From: Flavivirga eckloniae
GTDB lineage: Bacteria; Bacteroidota; Bacteroidia; Flavobacteriales; Flavobacteriaceae
Reading direction: 5' to 3'
DNA: 64,000 nucleotides
Assembly: GCF_002886045.1 (NCBI RefSeq)
Contig: NZ_CP025791.1
Location: 4,851,001-4,915,000 of the forward strand
The notes under the pieces are model-generated. The model ran no database searches and was not told where the DNA came from. It worked only from the letters and a program-made list of their open reading frames with translations. How positions within the stretch are numbered: the stretch's first letter is position 1; every line of letters starts with the position of its first letter. This document shows positions 13,075 through 32,940 of the stretch, in pieces. The position numbers and the translations under genes were made by a program.

Positions 13075-13410
13075 GCCATAAATGGTTCTCAAAACGAAGC
13101 AACATTGGGCAGTGACAGAATATGTCATTTAGTAGATGGAAAAAGAAAGGTCTTGGTAAAAGAGAAAATTATTAATATTAAAGATGGTGAATATTATATC
13201 TATGATGTTTACGATTGGGAAGATTTTCCTTTAAAAAAGATGAACAATACATTTGGAGTAAAAGTTAATGCCCAAGGCAAAACAACAATTTACCAAATTA
13301 CAGAATACAGACTAAAACCACGTTTTTTAACCTGGATCATGAAGGGTGAAATGAGATCTCAAGCAAGAACGGCATTAATCTCTTACAAGCATTATATGGA
13401 AACCGGATAA
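13075..13410 (+). pseudogene. N-terminally truncated SRPBCC / polyketide-cyclase-like gene remnant
   Basis: The frame opens after tandem stops at 13069-13074 and encodes about 111 residues matching only the back two thirds of a SRPBCC protein (GSDRICHL, KEKIINIKDGEYY, YDWEDFPLKKM, KHYMETG). The first 40 or so residues expected for the family (the initial strand and first helices) are missing, and the only start is a TTG at 13105 inside the conserved part. A short unrelated ATG frame at 13068 stops after 15 codons. Probably a decayed gene; a short functional form is possible. Confidence 0.6.
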
Positions 13411-13485
13411 AAAAATACAGAACAAGCTATCATTAAGAAGAAGTATAAATCCTATTAAAGCTATCTTTCTGTTGTTTTAGCATTG

Positions 13486-13521
13486 CAGCATATACATTTT
13501 AAACATAAAATGTATATGCTG
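13486..13521 (-). terminator. 15 bp perfect hairpin after deaD
   Basis: CAGCATATACATTTT pairs with AAAATGTATATGCTG (13486-13500 with 13507-13521). It lies just past the deaD stop. No T-run follows on the deaD strand, so it may stabilise the 3' end rather than terminate. Confidence 0.5.
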
Positions 13522-13532
13522 TAGCATTACTA

Positions 13533-15335
13533 CTAACGTCTAGAACGTCTAGGGCTAAATGAATTAGAATTGCCAGAGTCTGAACGTCTTGGTTTCGAAG
13601 AGCTGTCGGAACGACGTCTGTCACCTCTATTTCCAGAATCAGATCTTCTTCCATCACGTTTTCCGCCTCCTTTTCTGTCATCACGTCTTTTACTGCCTCG
13701 GTTTCTGTCGTTACGCCTTCTGCCTCCTCCTCGATTTTCAGAAACTTCAACGTTAACAAAACGTCCATTATGTTTAAAGTCGGTAAAGAATTCCAGTACT
13801 TTATCTTTTAATTCATTTTCGGTATTAAAGAAAGAGAAACTATCTTTTACTTCAACTTTAAAAACGTCGTCTCTACCAAGTTGCAACTGTTCTTTTAGGA
13901 AGTCTTTTAGTTTCATCCAATCATAACCATCTTTGCCACCAACATTTATAAAGTAACGTGTAGATTTACCACCAAAATCACGTCCGCTATCCTTACTATC
14001 GCTAGAGCTTTCAGAAACATTTAAGTTTCTGGATTTTTGATAATAATTGTAGAAACGCGTAAATTCAACAGAGAAAAACTTCTTGATCAATTCATCTTTA
14101 TCGGTATCCTCAAACAATTCGTTGATGCTTGATAAATGTCTATCAATTTCATGATTGATCTCTGTATTATGTATTTTATTGGCAAGCGACATTAATTGTA
14201 CCTGACAAATTTCCGATCCGTCCGGAATATCTTTTTTCTCGAACTTACGTTTAATAATACGCTCAATACTTTTTATTTTACGTACTTCGCTTTTAGAAAC
14301 AATCACCATAGAAACCCCTGTTTTTCCAGCACGCCCCGTACGTCCCGAACGGTGTGTGTAAGTTTCGATTTCGTCTGGTAATTGGTAGTTTATTACGTGA
14401 GTTATATCATCAACATCAATACCACGTGCAGCAACATCGGTAGCTACTAACATTTGTATTTGTTTGTTTCTAAACGATTTCATGACCAAATCACGTTGAT
14501 TCTGACTTAAATCACCATGTAAGGCACCAGCACTATATCCATCTTCAATAAGTTGTTCGGCTACTTTTTGAGTATCGCGTTTGGTCCTGCAAAAGACTAC
14601 CGAGAAAATATCCGGATTGGCATCAGACAAGCGTTTTAAAGCCTGGTAACGATCTCTGGCATTTACTAAAAAGTATTCGTGGGATACATTTGTAGTACTT
14701 TCGTTTTTGTTTCCAACAGTTATTTCCTGTGGGTTGTGCATAAAGTTTTTGGCAATAGCCGCAACTTCTCTTGGCATGGTTGCAGAAAACAACCACGTAC
14801 TTTTATCTTCTGGTGTATGCGAAAGTATATCTGTTATATCTTCTTTAAAGCCCATGTTTAGCATTTCGTCGGCTTCATCTAAAACAGCATATTGAATTTT
14901 AGAAATATCAACCATACGTCTGCTAATCATATCTTTCATACGACCAGGCGTGGCTACAATAATTTGTGCTCCTCTTTTAACAGATCTGGCTTGATCTGTA
15001 ATGCTGGATCCGCCATAAATGGCTACGACGTTAAGACCTTTACAGTACTTGCCATATTGGCTCATTTCGTTGGCTATTTGCAAGCAAAGCTCGCGAGTAG
15101 GCGATAAAATTAAACCTTGGGTTGTTTGGCTATTGATATCAATTTTTTGTAGCATAGGGAAACCGAAAGCTGCCGTTTTACCGGTTCCGGTTTGCGCTAA
15201 GGCTACTAAATCGCCTTCTGAATTTAATAAAATTGGAATAGCTTTGTCTTGTACTTCACTGGGTTTTACGAAACCTAAGTCCGTAATAGCTTGTAATAGG
15301 TCGTCATTAAGACCTAAATCTTGGAATGTGCTCAT
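13533..15335 (-). CDS. deaD: DEAD-box ATP-dependent RNA helicase (DeaD/CsdA type)
   Basis: 600 residues. Q motif (FQDLGLNDDLLQAITDLGF), motif I AQTGTGKT, Ia PTRELCLQ, motif II DEAD, motif III SAT, and motif VI HRSGRTGRAG give a complete RecA1-RecA2 core (about 1-370). A dimerisation-like helical region follows, then a DbpA-type RNA-binding domain at about 460-535 (RYFINVGGKDGYDW, DVFKVEVKDSFSFF), then an Arg/Gly/Ser/Asp tail typical of RNA-binding disorder. It unwinds structured RNA in ribosome assembly and mRNA decay, often in the cold. The predicted leader of about 107 nt fits post-transcriptional control. Confidence 0.95.
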   Translation of the reverse strand: MSTFQDLGLNDDLLQAITDLGFVKPSEVQDKAIPILLNSEGDLVALAQTGTGKTAAFGFPMLQKIDINSQTTQGLILSPTRELCLQIANEMSQYGKYCKGLNVVAIYGGSSITDQARSVKRGAQIIVATPGRMKDMISRRMVDISKIQYAVLDEADEMLNMGFKEDITDILSHTPEDKSTWLFSATMPREVAAIAKNFMHNPQEITVGNKNESTTNVSHEYFLVNARDRYQALKRLSDANPDIFSVVFCRTKRDTQKVAEQLIEDGYSAGALHGDLSQNQRDLVMKSFRNKQIQMLVATDVAARGIDVDDITHVINYQLPDEIETYTHRSGRTGRAGKTGVSMVIVSKSEVRKIKSIERIIKRKFEKKDIPDGSEICQVQLMSLANKIHNTEINHEIDRHLSSINELFEDTDKDELIKKFFSVEFTRFYNYYQKSRNLNVSESSSDSKDSGRDFGGKSTRYFINVGGKDGYDWMKLKDFLKEQLQLGRDDVFKVEVKDSFSFFNTENELKDKVLEFFTDFKHNGRFVNVEVSENRGGGRRRNDRNRGSKRRDDRKGGGKRDGRRSDSGNRGDRRRSDSSSKPRRSDSGNSNSFSPRRSRR

Positions 15336-22856: not shown

Positions 22857-23074
22857 ATACCAAAAATAGTAAAAATTAGTACCCATTGGTAGTTGTTTTT
22901 TTATAAAGGTCTGTTCCTGCTTTACACTATATCTTTTTAAAATATCTATAACTACCAAAGCAACTTTAGGGCAAGATGTGGCAATCTGCTAAAAAAATAC
23001 TAACGGTTTTGCTTTTATTTTAAAAAGGATGCCGTTTCAATCAGGAGTAGCTGCCAATGTCAGAGCAATTTTGC

Positions 23075-23082
23075 TACCTTTG
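23075..23082 (+). promoter_or_regulatory. -7 element TACCTTTG for pepD
   Basis: Exact TAnnTTTG, 22 bases before the pepD ATG at 23104. It supports that start over the longer open frame. Confidence 0.6.
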
Positions 23083-23103
23083 CACAACTTTATAAATAAT
23101 ACT

Positions 23104-24564
23104 ATGAGTACAGAGATAAGACAACTTCAACCCCAACAACTTTGGAATAAATTTGCAGATATTAATGTTATACCTCGCGGTTCTAAAAAAGAGGCCCGTA
23201 TTATCGCATTCATGAAAGAATTTGGTAAAAATCTGGGTCTGGAAACCATTGAGGATGAAGTTGGAAATGTTATTATAAAGAAGCCAGCAACACCGGGTAT
23301 GGAAAATAGAACGACCGTAGTTATGCAGTCGCATTTAGATATGGTGCACCAGAAAAACAGCGATACCGAGTTCGATTTCGATACTCAAGGCATCGATATG
23401 TTTATAGATGGTGATTGGGTACGTGCAAAAGGTACAACCCTTGGAGCAGATAATGGCTTAGGTGTTGCTACTATTATGGCTATATTGGAAAGTACTGATA
23501 TTGAGCACCCAGCTATTGAAGCTTTATTTACTATTGATGAAGAAACTGGGATGACTGGAGCTATGGGCTTAAAAGGTGGTTTGCTCACAGGAGGTATTCT
23601 TTTAAATTTAGATACCGAAGAAGACGATGAAATAGGTGTAGGCTGTGCCGGTGGTGTGGACATTACAGCAACTAGAAGTTACAACGAAGAAGAAACTCCA
23701 GAATTTAAAATTGGGTATAGTATTGAAGTTAAAGGTTTACAGGGTGGACATTCGGGAATGCAAATTCACGAAGGTTTAGGCAATGCCAATAAAATAATGA
23801 ACCGTGTGCTGTTTGATGGTTTTGAAAACTACGGACTAAGAATCTCTGAAATAAACGGTGGTGGTTTACGTAATGCGATTCCAAGGGAAAGTAAGACCGT
23901 TGTTGCTATTGATGCTGTACATGAAGATGCTTTTTTATTAGAAATGGCTCTGGTTTCCAACACCATTAAAAAGGAACTTAAAACCATGGAGCCAGATTTA
24001 GAAATTAGTATTTCTAAAGTAGATACACCAAAGCTTATTATGGACCTGGGTGTGCAAGAAGGGGTGACAAGAGCAATATATGCAGCAATTAATGGTGTGT
24101 ATCGTATGAGTGCGGATATTCCAGATTTGGTGGAAACCTCCAATAATATAGCACGTGTTATAATAAAAGACGGTGCTATTAAAATAATGTGTTTAACACG
24201 TTCGTCGGTAGAGAGTTCTAAAATGGACTTAGCGAATACACTTCGAGCTACTTTCGAGTTAACGGGTTGTGAAGTGGAACTTTCGGGAGATTACCCGGGA
24301 TGGACACCAAATATGGACTCGGCCATTTTAAAGGTGATGACAAAACTTTACGAAGATTTAAATGGCGAAAAACCTCATGTGGCGGCTTGTCATGCTGGTT
24401 TGGAATGTGGTATTCTTGGCACTAATTATCCAGAAATGGATATGATAAGTTTTGGTCCTAATATTAAAGGAGCACACTCACCAGACGAGCGCGCTCAAAT
24501 TTCATCAGCTCAAAAATATTGGAAATTTGTATTGGAGATATTGAAGGAGATTCCTGTTAAATAA
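23104..24564 (+). CDS. pepD: Aminoacyl-histidine dipeptidase (M20 family)
   Basis: 486 residues, the normal PepD length. Zinc-site motifs: MQSHLDMVHQK (first His and Asp), TTLGADNGLGVA (bridging Asp), IDEETGMTGAMGLKGG (catalytic Glu) and the GLECGILG / FGPNIKGAHSPDER segments near the end. It hydrolyses dipeptides such as carnosine-type Xaa-His in the cytoplasm. Its last 25 codons (AQKYWKFVLEILKEIPVK) and the sequence after its stop are the source or sibling of the repeats scattered through the following 8 kb. Confidence 0.95.
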   Translation: MSTEIRQLQPQQLWNKFADINVIPRGSKKEARIIAFMKEFGKNLGLETIEDEVGNVIIKKPATPGMENRTTVVMQSHLDMVHQKNSDTEFDFDTQGIDMFIDGDWVRAKGTTLGADNGLGVATIMAILESTDIEHPAIEALFTIDEETGMTGAMGLKGGLLTGGILLNLDTEEDDEIGVGCAGGVDITATRSYNEEETPEFKIGYSIEVKGLQGGHSGMQIHEGLGNANKIMNRVLFDGFENYGLRISEINGGGLRNAIPRESKTVVAIDAVHEDAFLLEMALVSNTIKKELKTMEPDLEISISKVDTPKLIMDLGVQEGVTRAIYAAINGVYRMSADIPDLVETSNNIARVIIKDGAIKIMCLTRSSVESSKMDLANTLRATFELTGCEVELSGDYPGWTPNMDSAILKVMTKLYEDLNGEKPHVAACHAGLECGILGTNYPEMDMISFGPNIKGAHSPDERAQISSAQKYWKFVLEILKEIPVK

Positions 24565-24680
24565 GGTTGGTTGAAACGGAATATTTTGTTTAACGGTCTC
24601 GTGTATGAGTAGTAGCGGTGTTCTACTCAAAAACCTTTCGGTTTTGCACTGACCTTTGGTTTATATTTATACTTTCAATT
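24510..24680 (+). repeat. Array repeat, native copy (pepD 3' end plus terminator region)
   Basis: Last codons of pepD, its stop, the TTGAAACGGAA motif (24571-24581), GTTTAAC (24589-24595), and a GTGTATGAGTAG..CTACTC hairpin with AAAACC..GGTTTT stem. The same order recurs in copies 2 and 5, and the pepD-tail part in copy 1. It lacks the upstream promoter part found in copies 1-6. Its end overlaps the 3' end of the next gene. Confidence 0.8.
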
Positions 24681-25329
24681 TAAAACCTCCTAAAAGGAAT
24701 TTATATGGAATTGCTCTCATAAGCCTTCCTCTTACTTTTATTTTATTTCCATATAAATCTAAATATCCTTTTGCTGCAAACATAGCATGGCTTTTAGTCC
24801 AAAGAATCATACCAATATCTTCTTTAGCTCTTTTTCTGAATTTCCCGCCAAAAGAAGGTGTAACATGATTTTCTAACCCTAAAAGTTCATAGACACTAGG
24901 TGTATGGGTGCCATCGTTTAGGGTCTCCAAAGCTAGTTCAAAATCTTCTGGATAAATCGTTCTTCCTAATCTAGAATTATAATCTCCTTCTTTCGCAATC
25001 ATTTTACACATTGAAGCATAACATATATGTGCAAACTCTCTATACTTATTATAAAGTTCTATTGAAGCACCATCTTCTTCATAGTCTCCAAGAATAAAAC
25101 TCGCATCTTTTTTTACAAGTGCCAGTTCATTATTAGTGAACGAAATTTGGGCGCTATTTTTTAAGGTTACTTCATAAATACCGTCATTAGAGGTATAACT
25201 AATAGCTTCTTCACCATAAGTGTACATTGCTGCTTTAATAATGGCAATTGAAGCACAGTTACCTTCACGTTCTCCTTCAAAGTCTTTACCCTGATAAAAA
25301 GCTGTAAAAATAAATTGATTCTTTTTCAT
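24667..25329 (-). CDS. Hypothetical protein, possibly papain-fold (array module A)
   Basis: 220 residues, no signal peptide. I do not recognise a named family. EREGNCASIAIIKAAM (Cys25 at the head of a helix) and TKSHAMFAAKGYLDLYGN (His181, then Asp/Asn) have the order and spacing of a Cys-His-Asn papain-like peptidase, so a cysteine-peptidase or transglutaminase-like fold is a reasonable hypothesis, not a call. The last codons lie inside the array repeat. Its promoter is in repeat copy 1, about 55 bases upstream of the ATG. Confidence 0.6.
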   Translation of the reverse strand: MKKNQFIFTAFYQGKDFEGEREGNCASIAIIKAAMYTYGEEAISYTSNDGIYEVTLKNSAQISFTNNELALVKKDASFILGDYEEDGASIELYNKYREFAHICYASMCKMIAKEGDYNSRLGRTIYPEDFELALETLNDGTHTPSVYELLGLENHVTPSFGGKFRKRAKEDIGMILWTKSHAMFAAKGYLDLYGNKIKVRGRLMRAIPYKFLLGGFKLKV

Positions 25330-25380
25330 GTTATTTATTGCTTTAATTGTGTTATAATTTTTGTCGTTTAAATTACTGGC

Positions 25381-25616
25381 AATGCAAAGATAAGGTTCCG
25401 TTTCAATGAACTTTATCTTTTGTTAAACTAATATATACGAAATTTTTTACAAAATCAAATAGGAGAATTATATTTAGAATACAGGATTATACCCAGAACT
25501 TTCGAGTGAGCATAAACCATATGAATATACTCAAAAATATTGGAAGTTTGTATTGGCGATTTTTGAAGGAGGTTCCTGTTAAGTAAAATTAGTTGAAACG
25601 GAATGTTTCGTTTAAC
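25381..25616 (-). repeat. Array repeat copy 1
   Basis: Begins AATGCAAAGATAAGG, whose reverse strand carries TATCTTTG (25385-25392), a -7 promoter for module A. An internal deletion removes the central hairpin. It then runs through the TTAGAATACAGG segment to a pepD-tail copy (about 25530-25583) and ends at GTTTAAC. TTCCGTTTCAA (25396-25406) is the exact complement of TTGAAACGGAA (25593-25603). Confidence 0.8.
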
Positions 25617-25755
25617 GTGTTTGTATAAGATTAGTTGCGTGTTTAAGCACCTAATTTAGAAATACAAACCGAATAGAAAACCTGTAAGTATTTTCTTTTG
25701 TAAGTAATCTAGACTAACAATAAATTGTATACGGTGTTACCCAACGTTTTTTTTA
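25617..25755. repeat. Variant left-end element of array
   Basis: After copy 1 the usual GTGTATGAGTAG module is replaced by a different sequence of about 130 bases, from TGTTTGTATAAG to TTGTATACGGTGTTACCCAACG. It ends in ACCCAAC (25739-25745), complementary to GTTGGGT at 26311-26317. This looks like a second subtype of the same kind of junction. Confidence 0.55.
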
Positions 25756-26298
25756 TTATTCATACAGTTCGTTAATATTAATATTCTTTTCGTCTTTCAG
25801 ATAATTTCTTACAAGATTATTATAGCATTCTAGATTGTCATAAACCTGACAACCAAGTTCGAAGTTTTCTATTCCGTATTTCTTAACATTTTTCGATAAA
25901 TTTCCTGAACCAACAAGTCCACCAGAAAAATACTTAATCTCCTTATTTTTTAAATCAGCTTTAAATCGGTTTGTTATTTTTTCGCAATCCAATTCGTGAT
26001 ATTCAGAAAGTCGGTTTTGGATTTGTTCACTTTCGTAGATTTGAGCAATTAAGTATAGATTTAGAACTAAACAAATTCCAAATGCTCCAATCATTATTTT
26101 GGTCATTAAATTCCGCCAATTTTTATTGAAATAGTATAGTCCAACGCATAAAATTCCAATTCCAAAAAATACTTTAGCGTATTCCAATTCGCCAGGATTA
26201 AAGCTTGTCTCATTATAAGCATTGTACTTGTTATAAATAGACAATCCAAATGCTGAAATTCCTAAAATCAGAAGTATGTATTTTGTTCTAACGTTCAA
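25756..26298 (-). CDS. Hypothetical membrane protein (array module B)
   Basis: About 180 residues. The start is TTG at 26298; a TGA lies four codons upstream in frame, so no longer form exists. Membrane helices at about 7-24, 43-62 and 68-88, then a soluble tail with several Lys/Asn and two Cys (DCEKITNRF, ELGCQVYDNLECYNN). Family not recognised. The promoter TATCTTTG at 26322-26329 (reverse) predicts a leader under 20 nt. Flanked by the inverted repeat TTACCCAAC / GTTGGGTAA. Confidence 0.6.
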   Translation of the reverse strand: MNVRTKYILLILGISAFGLSIYNKYNAYNETSFNPGELEYAKVFFGIGILCVGLYYFNKNWRNLMTKIMIGAFGICLVLNLYLIAQIYESEQIQNRLSEYHELDCEKITNRFKADLKNKEIKYFSGGLVGSGNLSKNVKKYGIENFELGCQVYDNLECYNNLVRNYLKDEKNININELYE

Positions 26299-26317
26299 TT
26301 TTTTTCAAATGTTGGGT

Positions 26318-26689
26318 AATGCAAAGATAAAGTTCCTTTTCAATACTGAAACGAGTTCAGCACAAGTGAGCTTTATGAGTTGTTAAACGAAGGTAGACGA
26401 AATTTTTCACAAAACTAAGTAGGAGAATTATATTTAGAATACAGATTATACCAATAACTTTCGGGTGAGCATAAATCGTATGAATACGCTCAAGAATATT
26501 GGAAGCTTGTATAGGAGATTTTGAAGGAGATTTCTTTTAAGTAAAATTGGTTGAAACGGAATGTTTCATTTAACGGTATCGTGTATGAGTAGCGGTGTTC
26601 TACTCAAAAACCTTTCGGTTTTGCACTGACCTTTGGTTTATATTTATACTTTCGTTTTATAACCTAAACCGCTGTTACTTATACACAAT
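26318..26689 (-). repeat. Array repeat copy 2 (most complete)
   Basis: Order: AATGCAAAGATAAAG promoter block, CAATACTGAAACGAGTTCAG hairpin, GTTAAACGAA, TTAGAATACAG, pepD tail, TTGAAACGGAA, then GTGTATGAGTAGCGGT paired with ACCGCTGTTACTTATACAC (imperfect inverted repeat bounding about 105 bases). Reverse strand TATCTTTG at 26322-26329. Confidence 0.85.
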
Positions 26690-26702
26690 TTTAGGTGCAG
26701 CC

Positions 26703-27662
26703 TTATTCATATTTCTTTCTTTTCTCATCGATAAAATCTGCGGAAATGTAATAAATGTTTAATTCACCGTTGTCTGAAGTTTGATGCTTTTTTCTAATTT
26801 TCTCTAAGTTCTCGTTTGCTTGAGATGGATATTCACTGTTAATACGGTTACTAGAAAAAATAAAAAACTTCCCGTCTAAAGTCACATATGGGCACATTTC
26901 GTGAGCTTCTGAATTTATAGGTTCGCCTAAATTCTCAGGTTTTGTCCAATCTTCTCCAATTTTATAACTTATGTACAAATCTCCCTGTCCAAGACTATTG
27001 TTATAACCTCGGAATATAATATAATCCTCCTTAGGTGAAACAAAAGGATCTCCCTCTCCATTTTTACTGTTTAATGTATTCGAAAGTTTTTCCGCTTTAT
27101 AGTTGCCCTCGGTGTTAACGGCTCTATACATATCACCTGTGTCCCAAATGTTAAAGTAAATATCTCCTTTTTTTGTTATTGAGCTGTAATATGCACCTTG
27201 CATTCCTAAATCAAGATATTTTGGCTCGCTCCAAGTAGAGTTTTGTTTCTCAACATACCAAATATTGGTTTTTCCCGATGAGTCTGTTTTATTTAAAGGG
27301 CGTTCCGAGGTGAAATATAATTTGTCTCCTTTTGGAGAAAACAAAGGGTCGTATTCTGAAAATTCCCCTGAAAATTTTGTTATTCTAGCTTTTGTCCATT
27401 TACCATTATCATCCAGCTTTGTATGACATATAATTCCTTTCTCGGGAGTATTAGTTGTAAAGAAAAATTCTTTCCCGTCAGGTGAAAATGTTCCATTGTA
27501 TTCATCAAGGGAGCTAGAAATAAGCTCAGGGGACAATAGAATTGGAGTTTTTGTAGGCTTCATATCCATATATATGCCATTCACTTCATCTTCTATTTGG
27601 TTTTTACAACTTGAAATTGACATTAAAAGGGATAATGCAATTACGATTTTTATGCTCTTCAT
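26703..27662 (-). CDS. PD40 beta-propeller lipoprotein (array module C)
   Basis: About 319 residues from the ATG at 27662; the frame continues upstream into the repeat, giving a spurious extension. Lipoprotein signal ends in SISSCKNQ. The body holds PD40/TolB-like propeller blades: FSPDGKEFFFTTN, FSPKGDKLYFTSERP, VSPKEDYIIFRG and VTLDGKFFIFSSNR. Propellers of this type bind proteins or glycans at the surface. It is homologous to the C-terminal part of the ankyrin-PD40 protein of module G. Bounded by TTAGGTG / CACCTAA. Confidence 0.8.
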   Translation of the reverse strand: MKSIKIVIALSLLMSISSCKNQIEDEVNGIYMDMKPTKTPILLSPELISSSLDEYNGTFSPDGKEFFFTTNTPEKGIICHTKLDDNGKWTKARITKFSGEFSEYDPLFSPKGDKLYFTSERPLNKTDSSGKTNIWYVEKQNSTWSEPKYLDLGMQGAYYSSITKKGDIYFNIWDTGDMYRAVNTEGNYKAEKLSNTLNSKNGEGDPFVSPKEDYIIFRGYNNSLGQGDLYISYKIGEDWTKPENLGEPINSEAHEMCPYVTLDGKFFIFSSNRINSEYPSQANENLEKIRKKHQTSDNGELNIYYISADFIDEKRKKYE

Positions 27663-27683
27663 AGGTGATTTTCGGTTACACCT

Positions 27684-27739
27684 AATGCAAAAGATAAAGT
27701 TCCGTTTCAATACAGAAACGAGTTCAGCACAAGTGAACA
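27684..27739 (-). repeat. Array repeat copy 3 (truncated)
   Basis: Only the promoter/hairpin block: AATGCAAAAGATAAAG through CAGCACAAGTGAAC. The reverse-strand -7 element has one extra T (TATCTTTTG). The pepD tail is absent and module D follows at once. Confidence 0.75.
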
Positions 27740-27758
27740 TTGTTCTCAGCAGTTTTCA

Positions 27759-28265
27759 TTATTCTATTCTTTTAATTTTTGTCGAATCTTTGGATTTCCA
27801 AGAAATCCCTCCATTGTACGATTCCTGTTGTACAACTGTATATTCATCTTTTTTTATATCAATGTACTTTAATCGTTGAAGATAATCAGTTTTACGAGAC
27901 CCCCCAATTCTAAGAGTGTAAAGCGATTTTCCTTCAGCTATCCATAAATATTTAGAATATCCGCCTGAATTAAATACATATGTTTCTTCCCAAATATTGG
28001 AGGCAGGATTAACATATCCATGAGACCGATAAGAAAATGTTGTGTCTGACATCACAAAAGTTTGTGTAAGTACACATCCTTCGATATCAAGCTTAGTTAT
28101 GAGCCGTCCAATATAAACTTCAACACTATCTTTAATGGTGTATTCCTCCCATTCCCCCAAGAATGGATAGACCACTTTATGAGCATCCGAATTGCAACTG
28201 CTACTTTGGCTATAGGCCATAATTGTTTGACTCAACAAAATGTATAAAATTATTTTCACTTTCAT
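27759..28265 (-). CDS. Exported hypothetical protein (array module D)
   Basis: 168 residues. Signal peptide with cleavage near MAYSQ. The mature part opens with HKVVYPFLGEWEEYTIKD and continues in beta strands (VLTQTFVMSDTTFSYRSHGY, WEETYVFNSGGYSKYLWIAEG). This is the pattern of DUF1579-like lipocalin-style proteins, which often start FLGxWxG; I regard it as a weak match. Bounded by the 8 bp inverted repeat TTCTCAGC (27743) / GCTGAGAA (28303). Promoter in copy 4. Confidence 0.6.
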   Translation of the reverse strand: MKVKIILYILLSQTIMAYSQSSSCNSDAHKVVYPFLGEWEEYTIKDSVEVYIGRLITKLDIEGCVLTQTFVMSDTTFSYRSHGYVNPASNIWEETYVFNSGGYSKYLWIAEGKSLYTLRIGGSRKTDYLQRLKYIDIKKDEYTVVQQESYNGGISWKSKDSTKIKRIE

Positions 28266-28308
28266 AATCGATTATTTATTCACTTTGACATCATGTTCAA
28301 TTGCTGAG

Positions 28309-28478
28309 AATGCAAAGATAAAGTTCCGTTTCAATACTGAAACGAGTTCAGCACAAGTGAGCTTTATCGGTTGTTAAACGAAGGTAGGCGAAATTTTTTG
28401 CAAAATCAAGTAGGGGAATTATATTTAGAATACAGGATTATACCAAGAACCTTCGGGTGAGCATAAACCATATAAACA
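28309..28478 (-). repeat. Array repeat copy 4 (no pepD tail)
   Basis: Promoter block (reverse TATCTTTG at 28313-28320), hairpin, GTTAAACGAA, the TTAGAATACAGG segment, and GTGAGCATAAACC, then it ends before the pepD tail. The boundary repeat TGTCTTT of the next module begins at 28479. Confidence 0.8.
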
Positions 28479-28502
28479 TGTCTTTTAGTACTTTTCTAAG
28501 GC

Positions 28503-29651
28503 CTATTTTATATTTTTTCTCTTCATTCCAAAAAGAAACCTTATTGTATTATTTGGACGAATAAATAAATGATAAACGAGAAAAGTAATGGCGAAACATA
28601 TAATTAATAAAAACAAAAGCTTTAAAGAAATATTGTCTTTAGTTCTTACTACATAAAAACCTACAATTACAATTACTGTTTGATGTAAAATATAAAAGGG
28701 GTACACAGCAGTATTCATATAATTTAAGAGTTTACTACTTTTATTTAAATATTTTTTACCATAACCTAAAAAGGTGAATACCCACATCCAAGAATTAAAA
28801 TTTATAATACCAATAAAAAGATAGGTTTGGGGTTTTTCAATCCAGTTATCCCAAACGTCAAATGGTTCCCAACTATTCCATCTTAAGATATTAATTATTA
28901 AGATTGACAAAAAAGCAAAACTTAAGAATAAATGTCTTTTTGTTTCAATAATTGTCATTATTTGTTGAAATCTAAAAAGTAGTAATCCTGCAATAATGAA
29001 AAATATAAAAAATGAATGCCTTCCCCAATCATTTATTAAATCATATGTAGTTTTATAATAAAAAGATAGAAATGTGCAAGGAAGAATTGCTATTAAAATG
29101 AACACAAATATGGAAACGGGTTCTTTGAAAAAAGAACTTAAAGCTTTAGTTATTCGATTGTTTTTCTTTAATAATAAGAATAATGGAATTGATAGGATAT
29201 TATAACAAAATAAATAGGGGATAAACCATAAATGTAACCAGTGAAAATTTCCATTTGGCCACCATTTAAACTCTAAAAAAGATTGATAAAATTCAAAGTA
29301 GCTTTGGTCAATCCCTTCTAATTTTCGTTCAAAATATATTTGGGGAGCTACAAGGATAAAAGTCCAAATAATTGTAGGGATTATTAAACGTATAAATCGT
29401 TGAATAGTGAATGCTTTCCAATTTAATCGTAGCATAAGAATATAAGAGATGTATCCCGAAACAAAGAATAGCAAAGGCATTCTAAAAGATGCCATCCAAT
29501 AGTTAATTTCTAAAAGCACATTACTTGTTTCTTTATTTTTGATATGCCAACCCCATTCAGCCACAAAAACCATAAAAACGTGATAAATAAACATCATTAT
29601 AATGGCTATAACTCTTAAAAAATCAATGTAATAATATCGTGCTGTTTTCAT
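28503..29651 (-). CDS. Acyltransferase-3 family membrane protein (array module E)
   Basis: About 382 residues from the ATG at 29651. About ten membrane helices. N-terminal YYIDFLRVIAIIMMFIYHVF carries the conserved Arg and His of the AT3 (OpgC/OafA-type) family, and SFRMPLLFFVSGY follows as expected. These enzymes move acyl groups (acetyl, succinyl) onto extracytoplasmic sugars or lipids. It shares a module with the LytTR gene 88 bp upstream, probably as one transcript. Confidence 0.82.
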   Translation of the reverse strand: MKTARYYYIDFLRVIAIIMMFIYHVFMVFVAEWGWHIKNKETSNVLLEINYWMASFRMPLLFFVSGYISYILMLRLNWKAFTIQRFIRLIIPTIIWTFILVAPQIYFERKLEGIDQSYFEFYQSFLEFKWWPNGNFHWLHLWFIPYLFCYNILSIPLFLLLKKNNRITKALSSFFKEPVSIFVFILIAILPCTFLSFYYKTTYDLINDWGRHSFFIFFIIAGLLLFRFQQIMTIIETKRHLFLSFAFLSILIINILRWNSWEPFDVWDNWIEKPQTYLFIGIINFNSWMWVFTFLGYGKKYLNKSSKLLNYMNTAVYPFYILHQTVIVIVGFYVVRTKDNISLKLLFLLIICFAITFLVYHLFIRPNNTIRFLFGMKRKNIK

Positions 29652-29739
29652 TTCTTGTTTTTTCAACAAAAATAGATTTACAACAATACATAATTTGTTT
29701 TTTGTGATGAAAGACAAGGTTTTGTGACTATAAACAAGA

Positions 29740-30621
29740 CTATGAAATATTTTTCATTGTCTTGTTAAAAATCTTAATCATATTTCTTGAAACGGGCACA
29801 ACAGATTCATTAATTTGAAGTTGGTAACCTTGTGCGTTTCCATTGATTTTATTTACGTAATTACAATTAATTAAATAAGAACGATGGGTTTTAATAATGT
29901 TTGGATATGTTTTTAAAAGAGCATCTAAACTTTTTAATGTAGTTCTTATTAGTTTTTTCTTTGGTTTTTCTTTATCAAAATATATTTCTATGTAATTACC
30001 TTCTGATTTAGCATATATAAATTGATTAATATCAAATTCAAAACCTTCTATGTTTACAATATCTGTTTTTAGTTTAACTAAAGTTATTTTCTCATTAATA
30101 AAGTTATTTAATATCGTTGCATTATTGATATGTTTACTATTTAATAAATTAAAATTTATAGGAATTAGAATAACAACAAATAATGTGCCCACTAAAAATG
30201 TATTTGTTATTTCTTCAAACAAATATTGCCAAGACCAATTATTAAGGTTGTCGTAAATAATATCTCTAATCAAAAATTGAACTAAACCTATAATAAAGAA
30301 AATAAAGAAAATAAAAAGTATTTCTTTTAAAATATTCCAATTGTCTTCTTTTTTTAATTTTCCTAAAATGAATGCTATACTATAAATAACAATGGGAGGA
30401 GTTAATGCATGAATTATTGATATCCAGAAATAATTCATTTTATGTTCTGAATATTCAACATTGAAAGGCTTAAATGCAAAATTGAAAAAGAAAGTCATAA
30501 AAAAAAACAGAGCAACTATTATCTTAAGGCTTTTTCCTTTATAATAAAAAGGATAAGGTTGTAATAGAAAATGTGTGATTTTATTTTTCAAATTTGAAGT
30601 GTAACTCGTTTTTTTAGGCAT
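29740..30621 (-). CDS. Membrane-anchored LytTR-domain regulator (array module F)
   Basis: About 293 residues from the ATG at 30621. Four membrane helices (about 27-150) are followed by a LytTR DNA-binding domain at about 200-293 (QFIYAKSEGNYIEIYF, RTTLKSLDALL, IIKTHRSYLINCNYVNKI, VPVSRNMIKIF). The membrane part replaces the usual receiver domain, as in MHYT-like or DUF LytTR proteins of Bacteroidota. Likely controls its own operon with the acyltransferase. The -7 element in copy 5 is so close that the leader would be only a few bases; the alternative is translation from within the repeat. Confidence 0.8.
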   Translation of the reverse strand: MPKKTSYTSNLKNKITHFLLQPYPFYYKGKSLKIIVALFFFMTFFFNFAFKPFNVEYSEHKMNYFWISIIHALTPPIVIYSIAFILGKLKKEDNWNILKEILFIFFIFFIIGLVQFLIRDIIYDNLNNWSWQYLFEEITNTFLVGTLFVVILIPINFNLLNSKHINNATILNNFINEKITLVKLKTDIVNIEGFEFDINQFIYAKSEGNYIEIYFDKEKPKKKLIRTTLKSLDALLKTYPNIIKTHRSYLINCNYVNKINGNAQGYQLQINESVVPVSRNMIKIFNKTMKNIS

Positions 30622-30628
30622 TAAAGAC

Positions 30629-30990
30629 AATGCAAAGATAAAGTTCCGTTTCAATACTGAAACGAGTCCAGCACAAGCGGGCTTTATCAACTGTTGAACG
30701 AAGTTAGGTGAAATCTTTTATAAAATCAAGTAGGAGAATTATATTTAGAATACAGGATTATATCAAGAACCTTAGGGTGAGTATAAAACATATGTATATA
30801 CTCAAAAATATTGGAAGTTTGTATTGGAGATTCCTGTTAAGTAAAATTGGTTGAAACGGAATGTTTCGTTTAACGGTATCGTGTATGAGTAGAAGCAGTG
30901 TTTTGCTCAAAAACCTTTTGGTTTTGCACTGACCTTTGGTTTATATTTATGCTTTTTCTCTATGATTTAAACCACTGTTAATTATGTGCG
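30629..30990 (-). repeat. Array repeat copy 5
   Basis: Full order as in copy 2, with a 12-base deletion inside the pepD tail. TTCCGTTTCAA (30644-30654) is complementary to TTGAAACGGAA (30851-30861). Reverse TATCTTTG at 30633-30640. Terminator hairpins AAAACC..GGTTTT around 30911-30924. Confidence 0.85.
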
Positions 30991-30993
30991 CAG

Positions 30994-32385
30994 TTATCTG
31001 TTTCTTTCTTTTATTTCATTAATTATTTCTGTACTCACCCAATAAATATCCTGATTCCTTGTATAAAACAAATATTTTCCATCTTTAGTCACAACAGGAC
31101 AATATTCATAATATTGTGTATTTATTTCCTTCCCCATATTGACTGCTTTTGTCCATGAACCATTCGAGTCCTTAAAACTTATGTATAAATCTCCACGTCC
31201 ATAACTATCATCTTCTCTTGTAGAACAAAAAATGATATAAGATTCATCTGGAGATATAAAAACATCCGCTTCATAAGCTTCTGTATTTATTGAATTGTCA
31301 AGAGCCACAGGCTTTTGAAATTCACCATCAATAAATTTTGAGTAGTAGATATCGTGGTTGGTTTCTTTACCTTTTTCAGTAGCATGCCCATCTGATGAAA
31401 AATACATGGTTCCATCATGTGTAAACGAAATATAATATTCATCTCCATTCGTGTTAATATTTGTCCCAGTATTAATGGGTTCAGACCATCCGTTCTTATC
31501 CTTTTGGACATACCAAATGTCAACATCTTTAGGTTCTCCCAAACCATCCAAGGCTCTTTTCGAGATGAAGTATAATCTGTTTTCATCGTTAGATAAAAAT
31601 GGGTCATTGAAACCATAGCGATCATGAGAGAGTATTGTTTTTGGCTTAGACCATTTATCTCCTATAAGTTTTGAATATCGGATTTCACTTTTCCCGTCCG
31701 TATCCACACCAAAATAAAATTCTGTGCCATTTGAATTAAAATATGAACCAAATTCCTGTTCTTCGGTAGAAATAAAGTTCGGTGCGAATAGTTTTGGTGT
31801 TAACCCAGGATCGGGTTGCCCCATATATTTTCCTTTCATTTCAATAGAGCGAACCTTATTCTGATCTGCTCCCAATAAAAGTAAAAACTTAGAGATTTCT
31901 TTTGCATTCAATCTTTGTGAAATTTCCAAGGCTGTACTTCCCCTTTCATTTGTGCAATTGATATCAATACCACTACTAACTAATTTTTTAATAAATGTAC
32001 TGTCTTTCCTTGTCACTGCCTTTTCCATAAGCGACCCTCCGTATTTGTCTATCCAGTCATTATTGGGTTGTAATTCAAGTAACAAGTCAAAATATTCTTC
32101 GTTACCAAAATGAACTGCGATATGCATTGGGATTTTTTTCTGGAAATCTTCCCCATTGATGTTTATTTCTTTTTGAACCAGGAAATCAAAGACTTCTTTT
32201 TGCTTACAGGCAACGGCCCAATGTAATAAAGACCTACCGCGATTATCCTTTACATCTATTGCGTTATTTATTAACATACTATCCAATCTCACCAAATTAC
32301 CTTGGCAAACTGTTCTATGTATGTTTTGTGCAGATACACTTAGACCGGTCAAGGAAAAAACGAGAATAAATAATGTTTTTTTCAT
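30994..32385 (-). CDS. Ankyrin-repeat / PD40 propeller fusion protein (array module G)
   Basis: 463 residues. Signal peptide (to SVSAQ), then about five ankyrin repeats at 30-175 (DNRGRSLLHWAVACKQKEVF, DFQKKIPMHIAVHFGNEEYF, NERGSTALEISQRLNAKEIS), then PD40 blades at about 200-455 (FNDPFLSNDENRLYFISKR, ISFTHDGTMYFSSD, ISPDESYIIFCSTR, VTKDGKYLFYTRN). Both halves are protein-binding scaffolds; an exported ankyrin protein is unusual. Adjacent modules C and G share the PD40 part. Confidence 0.82.
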   Translation of the reverse strand: MKKTLFILVFSLTGLSVSAQNIHRTVCQGNLVRLDSMLINNAIDVKDNRGRSLLHWAVACKQKEVFDFLVQKEININGEDFQKKIPMHIAVHFGNEEYFDLLLELQPNNDWIDKYGGSLMEKAVTRKDSTFIKKLVSSGIDINCTNERGSTALEISQRLNAKEISKFLLLLGADQNKVRSIEMKGKYMGQPDPGLTPKLFAPNFISTEEQEFGSYFNSNGTEFYFGVDTDGKSEIRYSKLIGDKWSKPKTILSHDRYGFNDPFLSNDENRLYFISKRALDGLGEPKDVDIWYVQKDKNGWSEPINTGTNINTNGDEYYISFTHDGTMYFSSDGHATEKGKETNHDIYYSKFIDGEFQKPVALDNSINTEAYEADVFISPDESYIIFCSTREDDSYGRGDLYISFKDSNGSWTKAVNMGKEINTQYYEYCPVVTKDGKYLFYTRNQDIYWVSTEIINEIKERNR

Positions 32386-32403
32386 TTTGCTTTAATTGCT
32401 GAT

Positions 32404-32510
32404 AATGTAAAGATAAAATACCGTTTTAATGCTGAAACGATTTCAGCACAAGCGAACTTTATAGATTGTTAAACGAAGTTAGGTGAAATCTTTTACAAAA
32501 TCAACAAGAT
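32404..32510 (-). repeat. Array repeat copy 6 (distal end)
   Basis: AATGTAAAGATAAAAT, hairpin, GTTAAACGAAGTTAGGTGAAAT, then it ends just before yidD. Reverse -7 element is TATCTTTA, one base off consensus. This marks the far border of the array. Confidence 0.75.
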
Positions 32511-32520
32511 AAAATAATAC

Positions 32521-32745
32521 TTAAGGCACGGGGTCATGTCCTGAACCTCCCCAGGGATGGCAACTAAAAATACGTTTTATAGCTAACCAGCCACCTTTAA
32601 ATAAACCGTGTCTTTGTAAAGCTTCTTTAGAATAGTGGGAGCATGTTGGTTGATATCTACAGGTTGCAGGCGTTAATGGTGATATAAGTATTTGATATAC
32701 TTTTATCAAAAACAAAAACGGTGCTGTTAGTAGTTTTTTTAGCAT
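32521..32745 (-). CDS. yidD: Membrane protein insertion efficiency factor
   Basis: 74 residues, the full family length. [24 protein letters not shown] and [17 protein letters not shown] are the two YidD signatures with three conserved Cys. It acts at the inner membrane with YidC. Usually found with rnpA/yidC, but often alone in Flavobacteriaceae as here. The array ends 10 bases before its stop. Confidence 0.93.
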
Positions 32746-32940
32746 TATTCTTATTCCCTCGAAGGAGGGAATCTTATTAATTATAGTTCCAATGTATCAC
32801 TTCGATTCCTTTCATCAATCAAACTTCGATATTTCTTTTACCAAGTTTAATATAGACTTTGAGTAATCTTTTTTAATCGAACTTCAAACAATGAGATTCC
32901 TGCCTTACTGAAACAAGTTCAGCACATGTCGCAGGAACTT

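Follow-up and report, generated by a model that had tools for sequence, protein, structure and literature searches.

Between pepD and yidD, Flavivirga eckloniae carries a row of seven leftward genes that probably represents a tandem row of six promoter-like platforms, each loaded with one integron-type cassette that would have been captured by a tyrosine recombinase of Bacteroidota. The DNA analyzed (hereafter the window) comprises 64,000 nt of contig NZ_CP025791.1 (GCF_002886045.1), positions 4,851,001 to 4,915,000 of the forward strand, or C1:4851001-4915000 of a 5.67-Mb genome in a single contig, here labeled G000. Other G-numbers denote the genomes compared with it and L-numbers the loci fetched from them. 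Genome-wide searches scored 3, 150, 150 or 11 candidates per genome, and the counts that result from them are lower bounds.

The seven open reading frames (ORFs) fall into six modules separated by a composite repeat, as an earlier, sequence-only reading of this DNA had proposed. A repeat family of 168 nt has five copies (at 25355, 26315, 28306, 30626, and 32401; 65-89% to the reference), its 52-nt core adds a sixth at 27690, and the best-matching pair of copies reaches E 2e-109 in self-BLAST. The six repeat positions named in that reading (25381, 26318, 27684, 28309, 30629, and 32404) coincide within 1 nt with the cassette starts (25382, 26319, 27685, 28310, 30630, and 32405). Copies of the pepD 3' end were found at 24509 (native), 25530, 26489, and 30801, hence in repeat copies 1, 2, and 5 only, as had also been observed before. 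The similarity noted earlier between the native end and copy 5 extends over 167 columns at 85%, and copy 2 matches the native end at 89% over 181 columns. Read on the minus strand, a full module runs from platform to TT, to one or two genes, to a hairpin site where preserved, and finally to a scar made of gene ends (Table 1). The ORFs of three genes run into the repeat at their starts, and the true ATGs are likely at 27662 (g3), 30621 (g6), and 29651 (g5).

Table 1. Features of the pepD-yidD interval (window positions; E, expectation value; R1, covariance model of the hairpin; complementarity, that between cassette start and R'').
Feature	Coordinates	Strand	Basis and remarks
pepD	23029..24564	+	Left flank, native 3' end 24509-24564; M20 peptidase (Pfam); orthologs in 47/60 relatives
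Cassette 1 attC-like site remnant (R' half), adjoins pepD	24565..24666	-	By eye, identical to 3' half of g3 site; R'' half missing
g1, cassette 1, 220 aa	24667..25329	-	ORF; no Pfam family
Platform 1, promoter-like, with insertion point	25383..25461	-	C1:4876380-4876458; 85% to dispersed G001 platform; cassette 1 opens with TT at 25382
Scar, decayed yidD 3' end joined to pepD 3' end	25462..25600	.	Repeat search, self-BLAST, yidD shuffles
Cassette 2 attC-like site	25614..25746	-	R1, 91.8 bits, E 7.8e-16
g2, cassette 2, 180 aa	25756..26298	-	Cassette 25614-26319; complementarity 9/9
Platform 2, then yidD/pepD scar	26320..26571	.	yidD part not significant in this copy
Cassette 3 attC-like site, divergent subtype	26572..26700	-	R1, 38.5 bits, E 1.6e-5
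g3, cassette 3, PD40 beta-propeller protein	26703..27662	-	Cassette start 27685; complementarity 8/9, p 0.0035
Platform 3, truncated (52-nt core only)	27686..27741	-	Repeat search
g4, cassette 4, 168 aa	27759..28265	-	Cassette start 28310; R'' at 27751; no hairpin seen; complementarity 9/9
Platform 4 and yidD scar, without pepD part	28311..28480	.	Repeat search, yidD shuffles
g5, cassette 5 second gene, acyltransferase 3	28503..29651	-	Pfam
g6, cassette 5 first gene, LytTR domain protein	29740..30621	-	Pfam; cassette start 30630; complementarity 7/9, p 0.39
Platform 5, then yidD/pepD scar	30631..30871	.	Repeat search, self-BLAST, yidD shuffles
Cassette 6 decayed attC-like site	30872..31003	-	R1, 12.6 bits, E 1.6, not significant; by eye aligns with g3 site
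g7, cassette 6, ankyrin and PD40	30994..32385	-	Pfam; cassette start 32405; complementarity 6/9, p 0.53
Native platform adjoining yidD	32406..32520	-	Repeat search
yidD	32521..32745	-	Right flank; Pfam

The spacer between repeat and gene, which had received no comment in the sequence-only reading, is an attC-like hairpin. That of g2 (25596-25750) has matches at E<=1e-3 in at least 164 of 249 genomes of the same family. A profile used for site detection in the array regions of G025, G192, G190, G196, G273, and G206 found 143 sites, which share a single orientation within each region and mostly stand 0.4-3 kb apart; G025 alone holds 46 over 68 kb, while G077 shows one site in each of two stretches only. 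In an alignment of 66 of 68 non-redundant hairpins, themselves chosen from 123, 97.2% of cells are paired over 16 pairs, of which eight show two-sided and none one-sided change. Covariation amounts to 0.265, compared with at most 0.054 in shuffled and slid control alignments, and is reached by none of 500 shuffles, in which kinship between rows is retained. Slid controls pair in 22-39% of cells, and one of them equals the hairpin structure in pair types (12), not in paired cells or covariation. No G-U pairs occur, so that a DNA hairpin would fit better than an RNA one. The AAC/GTT pairs are kept in 62-65 of the 66 rows; the outer bases vary, and the RYYY of RYYYAAC/GTTRRRY, which we take to be the integron R box consensus, is broken in many rows. 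Rfam returned a xanthine riboswitch as its sole match, below threshold (25.8 bits, cut-off 36), and the hairpins thus match no Rfam family.

A second property links hairpin and gene into one unit. In 96 of 130 adjacent pairs drawn from the 143 sites, the six variable bases at the cassette start are exactly those expected from the flank of the cassette's own site, compared with 2.8 of 130 expected by shuffling (G077, pairs more than 4 kb apart, and pairs with unparsed ends were omitted). This agreement between start and R'' is the cassette signature of integrons. Within the window, g2, g4, and g3 obey the rule (Table 1), and complementarity in g5g6, g7, and g1 (5/9) is no higher than in shuffles. 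The cassette-like character suggested for the modules is supported; g2 and g3 show both hairpin and end rule and g4 the end rule, and the hairpin is lost or decayed in cassettes 1, 4, 5, and 6. Furthermore, g2 has a homolog in G273 (L135, 39.5% identity) that sits between two hairpin sites and another in G003 (L195, 54%) beside a site of 44 bits.

A tyrosine recombinase of 305-396 amino acids stands at the 5' array end in four of the six regions (G025, G196, G192, and G273), and inspection by eye shows a G|TT junction (attI) between this recombinase and the next gene after it. In the attI region of L140, L142, L146, and L150, a short palindrome of variable sequence lies, by eye, between recombinase and G|TT. 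When R1 was applied around 80 recombinase loci, 40 hairpins were found in 13 loci, 38 of them downstream on the same strand in 12 loci and the other two upstream on the opposite strand (L236); of the 67 loci with no R1 hairpin, many are of short length or encode IntI or other Xer-like proteins. Hairpins near the recombinase number four in Winogradskyella ursingii, seven each in Seonamhaeicola aphaedonensis and Algibacter onchidii, two each in Algoriphagus ornithinivorans and Rufibacter, and one each in Zunongwangia mangrovi and Flavobacterium aciduliphilum. Among 296 Bacteroidota genomes, at least 57 have the hairpin, at least 99 the recombinase (E<=1e-55), and 36 both. The recombinase was found in 36 of the 57 hairpin genomes and 63 of the 239 others (Fisher p 2.8e-7, kinship uncorrected), a value that is rough given the few candidates scored, the permissive threshold, and the relatedness of the genomes. 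The tyrosine recombinase that the sequence-only reading had suggested looking for is thus linked to such cassettes in relatives, and it would join the attC-like hairpin with attI or with a platform.

These enzymes differ from IntI. In NCBIfam, the four array-end recombinases are nearest to NF040815 (XerA / integron integrase; 214-241 bits, cut-off 220) and reach 197-211 bits with TIGR02249 (IntI; cut-off 265), where the best stretch ends at profile position 178-179 and, in such proteins, second stretches begin at about 239-246. Residues 185-245 of IntI4 (2A3V), 61 in all, face 18 in an array-linked enzyme, and GLRxxE and HxLRH are spaced 91-92 residues apart in the array-linked enzymes, compared with 133-134 in ten IntI-type proteins of the same scan; the additional domain of IntI, of roughly 42 residues, is absent. 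In a tree of 75 of 87 rows, 43 of them unlabeled (short rows, rows whose motif came too early, and four aberrantly long ones were dropped, and long proteins were trimmed to their last 330 residues), a 100/100 branch splits 10 IntI rows from 22 array-linked rows. Unlabeled Xer-like rows fall among the latter, which thus stand apart from IntI and form no exclusive clade. The residues R, K, H-R, H, and Y, presumably the catalytic ones, are invariant in nine of nine rows. TIGR02249 found matches, none above cut-off, in 39 of 40 relatives and also in all 14 control genomes, and this model alone is therefore uninformative. A Foldseek search of the PDB with a model of the Winogradskyella ursingii recombinase (predicted local distance difference test 82.7, predicted TM-score 0.54) ranked XerA first with IntI4 close behind, and the fold search thus does not separate them.

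Most of these recombinases carry an extra N-terminal region, an extension of about 75-95 residues in those of L133, L123, L134, and L139 and of about 95 in three of the four array-end enzymes; in the structure model of a relative it reads bbabbab. Of three such N-termini, two drew no Pfam match at all and the third none over cut-off, its best being ThiI ferredoxin-like at 18.2 bits where 25 is required. A HARP-like domain, also considered, found no support. Outside the family, some recombinases (G315, G323, and G445) lack the N-terminal region, and in these three genomes enzyme and array are divergently oriented, an arrangement known from classical integrons.

The earlier statement that the window encodes no recombinase agrees with a profile search of its 264 six-frame pieces longer than 50 amino acids, in which no recombinase of this kind appeared at E<=10. 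With tblastn, weak matches appeared near 14.3 kb, the best of them at E 0.06, inside an ORF that looks like a DEAD-box helicase gene. Elsewhere in G000, at least 45 R1 matches occur at E<=0.05 (best 150 of 5047 candidates), and a main array starts at 4915373, 373 bp to the right of the window, and ends at 4933139. It is followed, in its own direction, by a recombinase fragment of 140 amino acids (C1:4936646-4937065, 21.6 kb to the right of the window), the only match in this genome at E<=1e-30. The window array thus has a decayed integron of its own kind some 32 kb away, and the reduction of the recombinase to a fragment suggests that the window array is probably frozen and no longer moved by an enzyme of its own. 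Inside the main array (L182 and L183), two near-identical helix-turn-helix transposase-like ORFs of 393 amino acids were seen by eye at L182:4356-5537 and 13315-14496, with neighboring ORFs of 334 amino acids.

Each platform ends in TTTATCTTTGCA|TT or a close variant; in a full module, its end reads GGAACTTTATCTTTGCA or a close variant, followed directly by the TT of the cassette. Insertion takes place at TTTGCA|TT, where the platform ends; the platform also holds the promoter-like stretch TTGATTTTG ... TAACTTCG, which we presume to resemble Bacteroidetes promoters. The site that belongs to the cassette itself is the hairpin on the 3' side of its gene, and the role of attachment site once proposed for the pepD 3' end is not supported. 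In its middle part, the repeat looks like a decayed 3' end of yidD, a feature that the sequence-only reading had not noted. Copy c5 was scored against seven yidD ends, and for four of them (own, G002, G009, and G004) at most 6 of 500 shuffles scored as high; the remaining three were not above shuffles. Copies c1 and c4 agree with some of the ends matched by c5, and c2 agrees with none of the seven tried. The pepD piece has no other match in its own genome (best 40 of 49 candidates), and in 11 congeners only native pepD is among the matches listed.

Comparison of the pepD-yidD interval across relatives revealed a variable site. The gap ranges from about 25 bp (G011) and 47 bp (G007) through 0.56 kb (G001 and G008), 4.4 kb (G004), and 7-8 kb (G010 and G009) to 13.5 kb (G017). 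In G002, G005, G006, and G028 (another genus), a single leftward gene (by eye) occupies a gap of 1.0-1.5 kb, and in G003 yidD is not within 18.5 kb of pepD. None of the seven window genes was found in 17 stretches beyond pepD (11 congeners and 6 other genomes; tblastn, 1e-3), of which 12 reach yidD and that of G024 is only 3.2 kb long. G002 offers a clean single case, with pepD end, GTTTAAC, gene, platform, and yidD in succession. In L059 and L061 (G001 and G008), a small GIY-YIG-like ORF (by eye) lies between GTCATTACGAGGAAGAGG-type repeats, a different sort of insert at this site. In L062, L060, and L070 (G009, G003, and G017), the operons seen by eye at the site read rightward and include SusC/SusD-like genes as well as a sigma/anti-sigma-like pair, and such operons in place of cassettes suggest that pepD-yidD is a more general insertion hotspot.

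Platforms are also dispersed over other loci of the genus. Of the 12 genus genomes, G000 among them, 10 have 2-12 matches to an 87-nt platform of G001, G011 has one, and G010 has none; these are counts of matches, some of which are two pieces of one platform, and seven of the 12 in G000 belong to the window array. The platforms inspected stand behind core-like genes such as msrA and htpG (by eye). Beside a glyA-like ORF, one and the same platform is followed by a different gene in each of G000, G001, and G008 (by eye), and a hairpin of 82.7 bits lies directly behind the G001 gene. Across 12 platform loci, a clear hairpin directly follows the gene in L101, L102, and L114, and L111 is borderline (26.4 bits). 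Tandem platform rows recur in G005 (four in 8 kb), G002 (three in 4 kb), and G003 (two in 1.5 kb). In G002 and G005, the repeated unit of the row, which in G002 is 95.3% identical over 214 nt, takes in at least 100 nt of upstream sequence, namely the end and terminator-like hairpin of what looks like a single upstream gene. Repeated gene ends therefore accompany platform duplication and are no peculiarity of pepD; because this other locus repeats the 3' end of a different gene, the pepD and yidD pieces look like by-products, or scars, of tandem duplication.

From these features, the following course of events can be proposed. The platform would be a short promoter-like insertion element, and a cassette would consist of one or two genes with a 3' attC-like DNA hairpin, clearly kept in two of the six cassettes here. 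The recombinase would recombine the hairpin with the attI beside its own gene or with a platform, which would thus serve as a secondary, promoter-bearing insertion site; a gene captured there would come to lie directly behind the promoter. One loaded platform at pepD-yidD may then have been duplicated in tandem with breakpoints in the yidD and pepD 3' ends, leaving the repeated gene ends behind, and the duplicated copies would have come to carry different cassettes.

Several observations weigh against this scheme. On the side of the enzyme, G000 has no intact recombinase at E<=1e-30, none was seen at the array end inspected in G190, and the G206 contig (5.8 kb) is too short to tell. Moreover, 21 of the 57 hairpin genomes have no recombinase match and 63 of the 99 recombinase genomes no hairpin match, and the recombinase threshold may let in ordinary Xer proteins. 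As to the cassettes, only three of the six in the window pass the end rule, only two window hairpins (g2 and g3) score significantly with R1, and kinship remains in the shuffles behind the covariation estimate. The platforms join at A|TT, whereas attI and hairpin join at G|TT; by R1, 8 of the 12 platform loci have no hairpin. Finally, the yidD likeness in the scar is weak and absent in one of four copies, and no tandem array was found at pepD-yidD in the relatives examined.

The composite repeat could instead be a gene-less promoter cassette that alternates with payload cassettes and once captured the pepD and yidD ends, which we regard as unlikely. Such a cassette would start with TTAAACGAA behind a payload hairpin and end in a mini-hairpin, GTTTAAC ... 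AAAGATAAAGTTC / GAACTTTATCTTT GCA|TT. The platform is indeed a near-perfect inverted repeat, and in copies 2, 4, and native the TTCGTTTAA that precedes the mini-hairpin is complementary at 9/9 (by eye) to TTAAACGAA behind g2 and g7; these two features keep the idea alive, although copies 1 and 5 differ. The attC model matches one platform weakly (16.7 bits, E 0.25), a score that is not significant, and the mini-hairpin ends in A|TT. Gene-less promoter cassettes exist in Vibrio, according to the available text of PMC11014356. However, the pepD/yidD composite has no match elsewhere in its own genome (best 40 of 49) or among the congener matches listed, and at other loci the repeat carries the end of another gene.

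It seems quite improbable that a single leftward gene unit was duplicated in tandem long ago and that its copies diversified through homologous exchange with foreign DNA across the repeats, with no site-specific step. Repeats of roughly 75-90% identity could serve homologous exchange, and the lack of an intact recombinase in this genome and of the end rule in three of six cassettes would agree with such a history, but the end rule in g2, g3, and g4, the covarying hairpin, and the g2 homologs beside array hairpins speak against it. The sequence-only reading fared well on cassettes, variable site, and linked recombinase, and its proposal that a recombinase reuses the pepD 3' end as an attachment site and module boundary is largely refuted and retains hardly any probability: four pepD-end copies, the native one included, do lie in register, but cassette boundaries coincide with platform and hairpin, copies 3 and 4 bound modules with no pepD end, and platforms elsewhere hold genes without pepD sequence.

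The captured-cassette arrangement shares much with chromosomal integrons (superintegrons), namely one-way arrays of mostly single-gene cassettes, clusters without recombinase, a 3' hairpin with paired AAC/GTT ends, a cassette start complementary to R'', a tyrosine recombinase at the 5' end, and a G|TT junction. In contrast, the recombinase here lacks the additional domain of IntI, stands apart from it in the tree, and in 12 of 13 loci has the same orientation as the cassettes. XerA-type recombinases (PDB 5hxy and 4a8e; NF040815) obtained the best E-values both by sequence and by fold, with IntI4 (2a3v) close, whereas the enzymes described here are linked to cassette arrays and mostly bear the extra N-terminal region. 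As described in the accessible part of PMC12901181 (Loot 2024 is cited for them), the attG sites and delta-attI cassettes of mobile integrons likewise involve insertion away from intI, at secondary sites, and attI-like repeats between cassettes; the putative secondary site here differs in being a conserved promoter-like platform that a genome carries at several loci and that has been duplicated along with scars of host genes. In Vibrio, the internal promoters of gene-less cassettes could allow expression of distant cassettes (PMC11014356, available text), whereas the promoter-like stretch here lies in the platform, whose own cassette status and activity are only putative. A further comparison was made with the system in the accessible text of PMC12690207.

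We lean, with modest confidence, toward a wider proposal taken as a whole: that Bacteroidota have an integron system of their own, with a XerA-like recombinase lacking the IntI domain and cassette arrays across the phylum; that this enzyme may have reached fold-specific cassette recombination independently of IntI; and that in one genus the insertion site became a promoter-bearing platform, spread behind housekeeping genes, and was amplified in tandem, so that many cassettes would be first in line for expression. The available text of the IntegronFinder 2.0 survey lists one complete Bacteroidetes integron (Salinibacter ruber M1) and cites an earlier survey with only In0 (PMC9024848). Bacteroidota are listed among integron-bearing phyla in the portions available of PMC8618304 and PMC9668308, intI has been found in the Bacteroidetes/Chlorobi group with selection on the IntI domain or patch (PMC2426708, in part), and the main text of PMC8352920, as far as available, has no mention of 'bacteroid'. 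According to the available part of PMC8138268, the IntI insertion is incompletely conserved in an integron-like subgroup, yet essential for function. No report of an IntI-less Bacteroidota cassette system was found in the open-licence literature (preprints not covered). The NCBI family name 'site-specific tyrosine recombinase/integron integrase' indicates that annotators have already met related proteins. If the arrays work, a large phylum would have a gene-capture system missed by IntI-based searches, and the IntI insertion would be dispensable in some integron-like recombinases.

Some minor observations complete the picture of the window. No relatives of g1 were found in the genome contigs searched, with the patterns used. 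PADLOC marked only g7, and weakly (PDC-M72A, 47.9 bits; ankyrin, 18.9). The two tRNAs of the window, considered as an attachment site, lie at 40.4 and 63.5 kb, away from the array. A palindromic element resembling a repetitive extragenic palindrome, built around CTGAAACGAGTTCAGCAC, is dispersed in the genome (window 32906-32929; G000 C1:1121051, 3114234, and 5006929) and also occurs inside most platforms of the window array.

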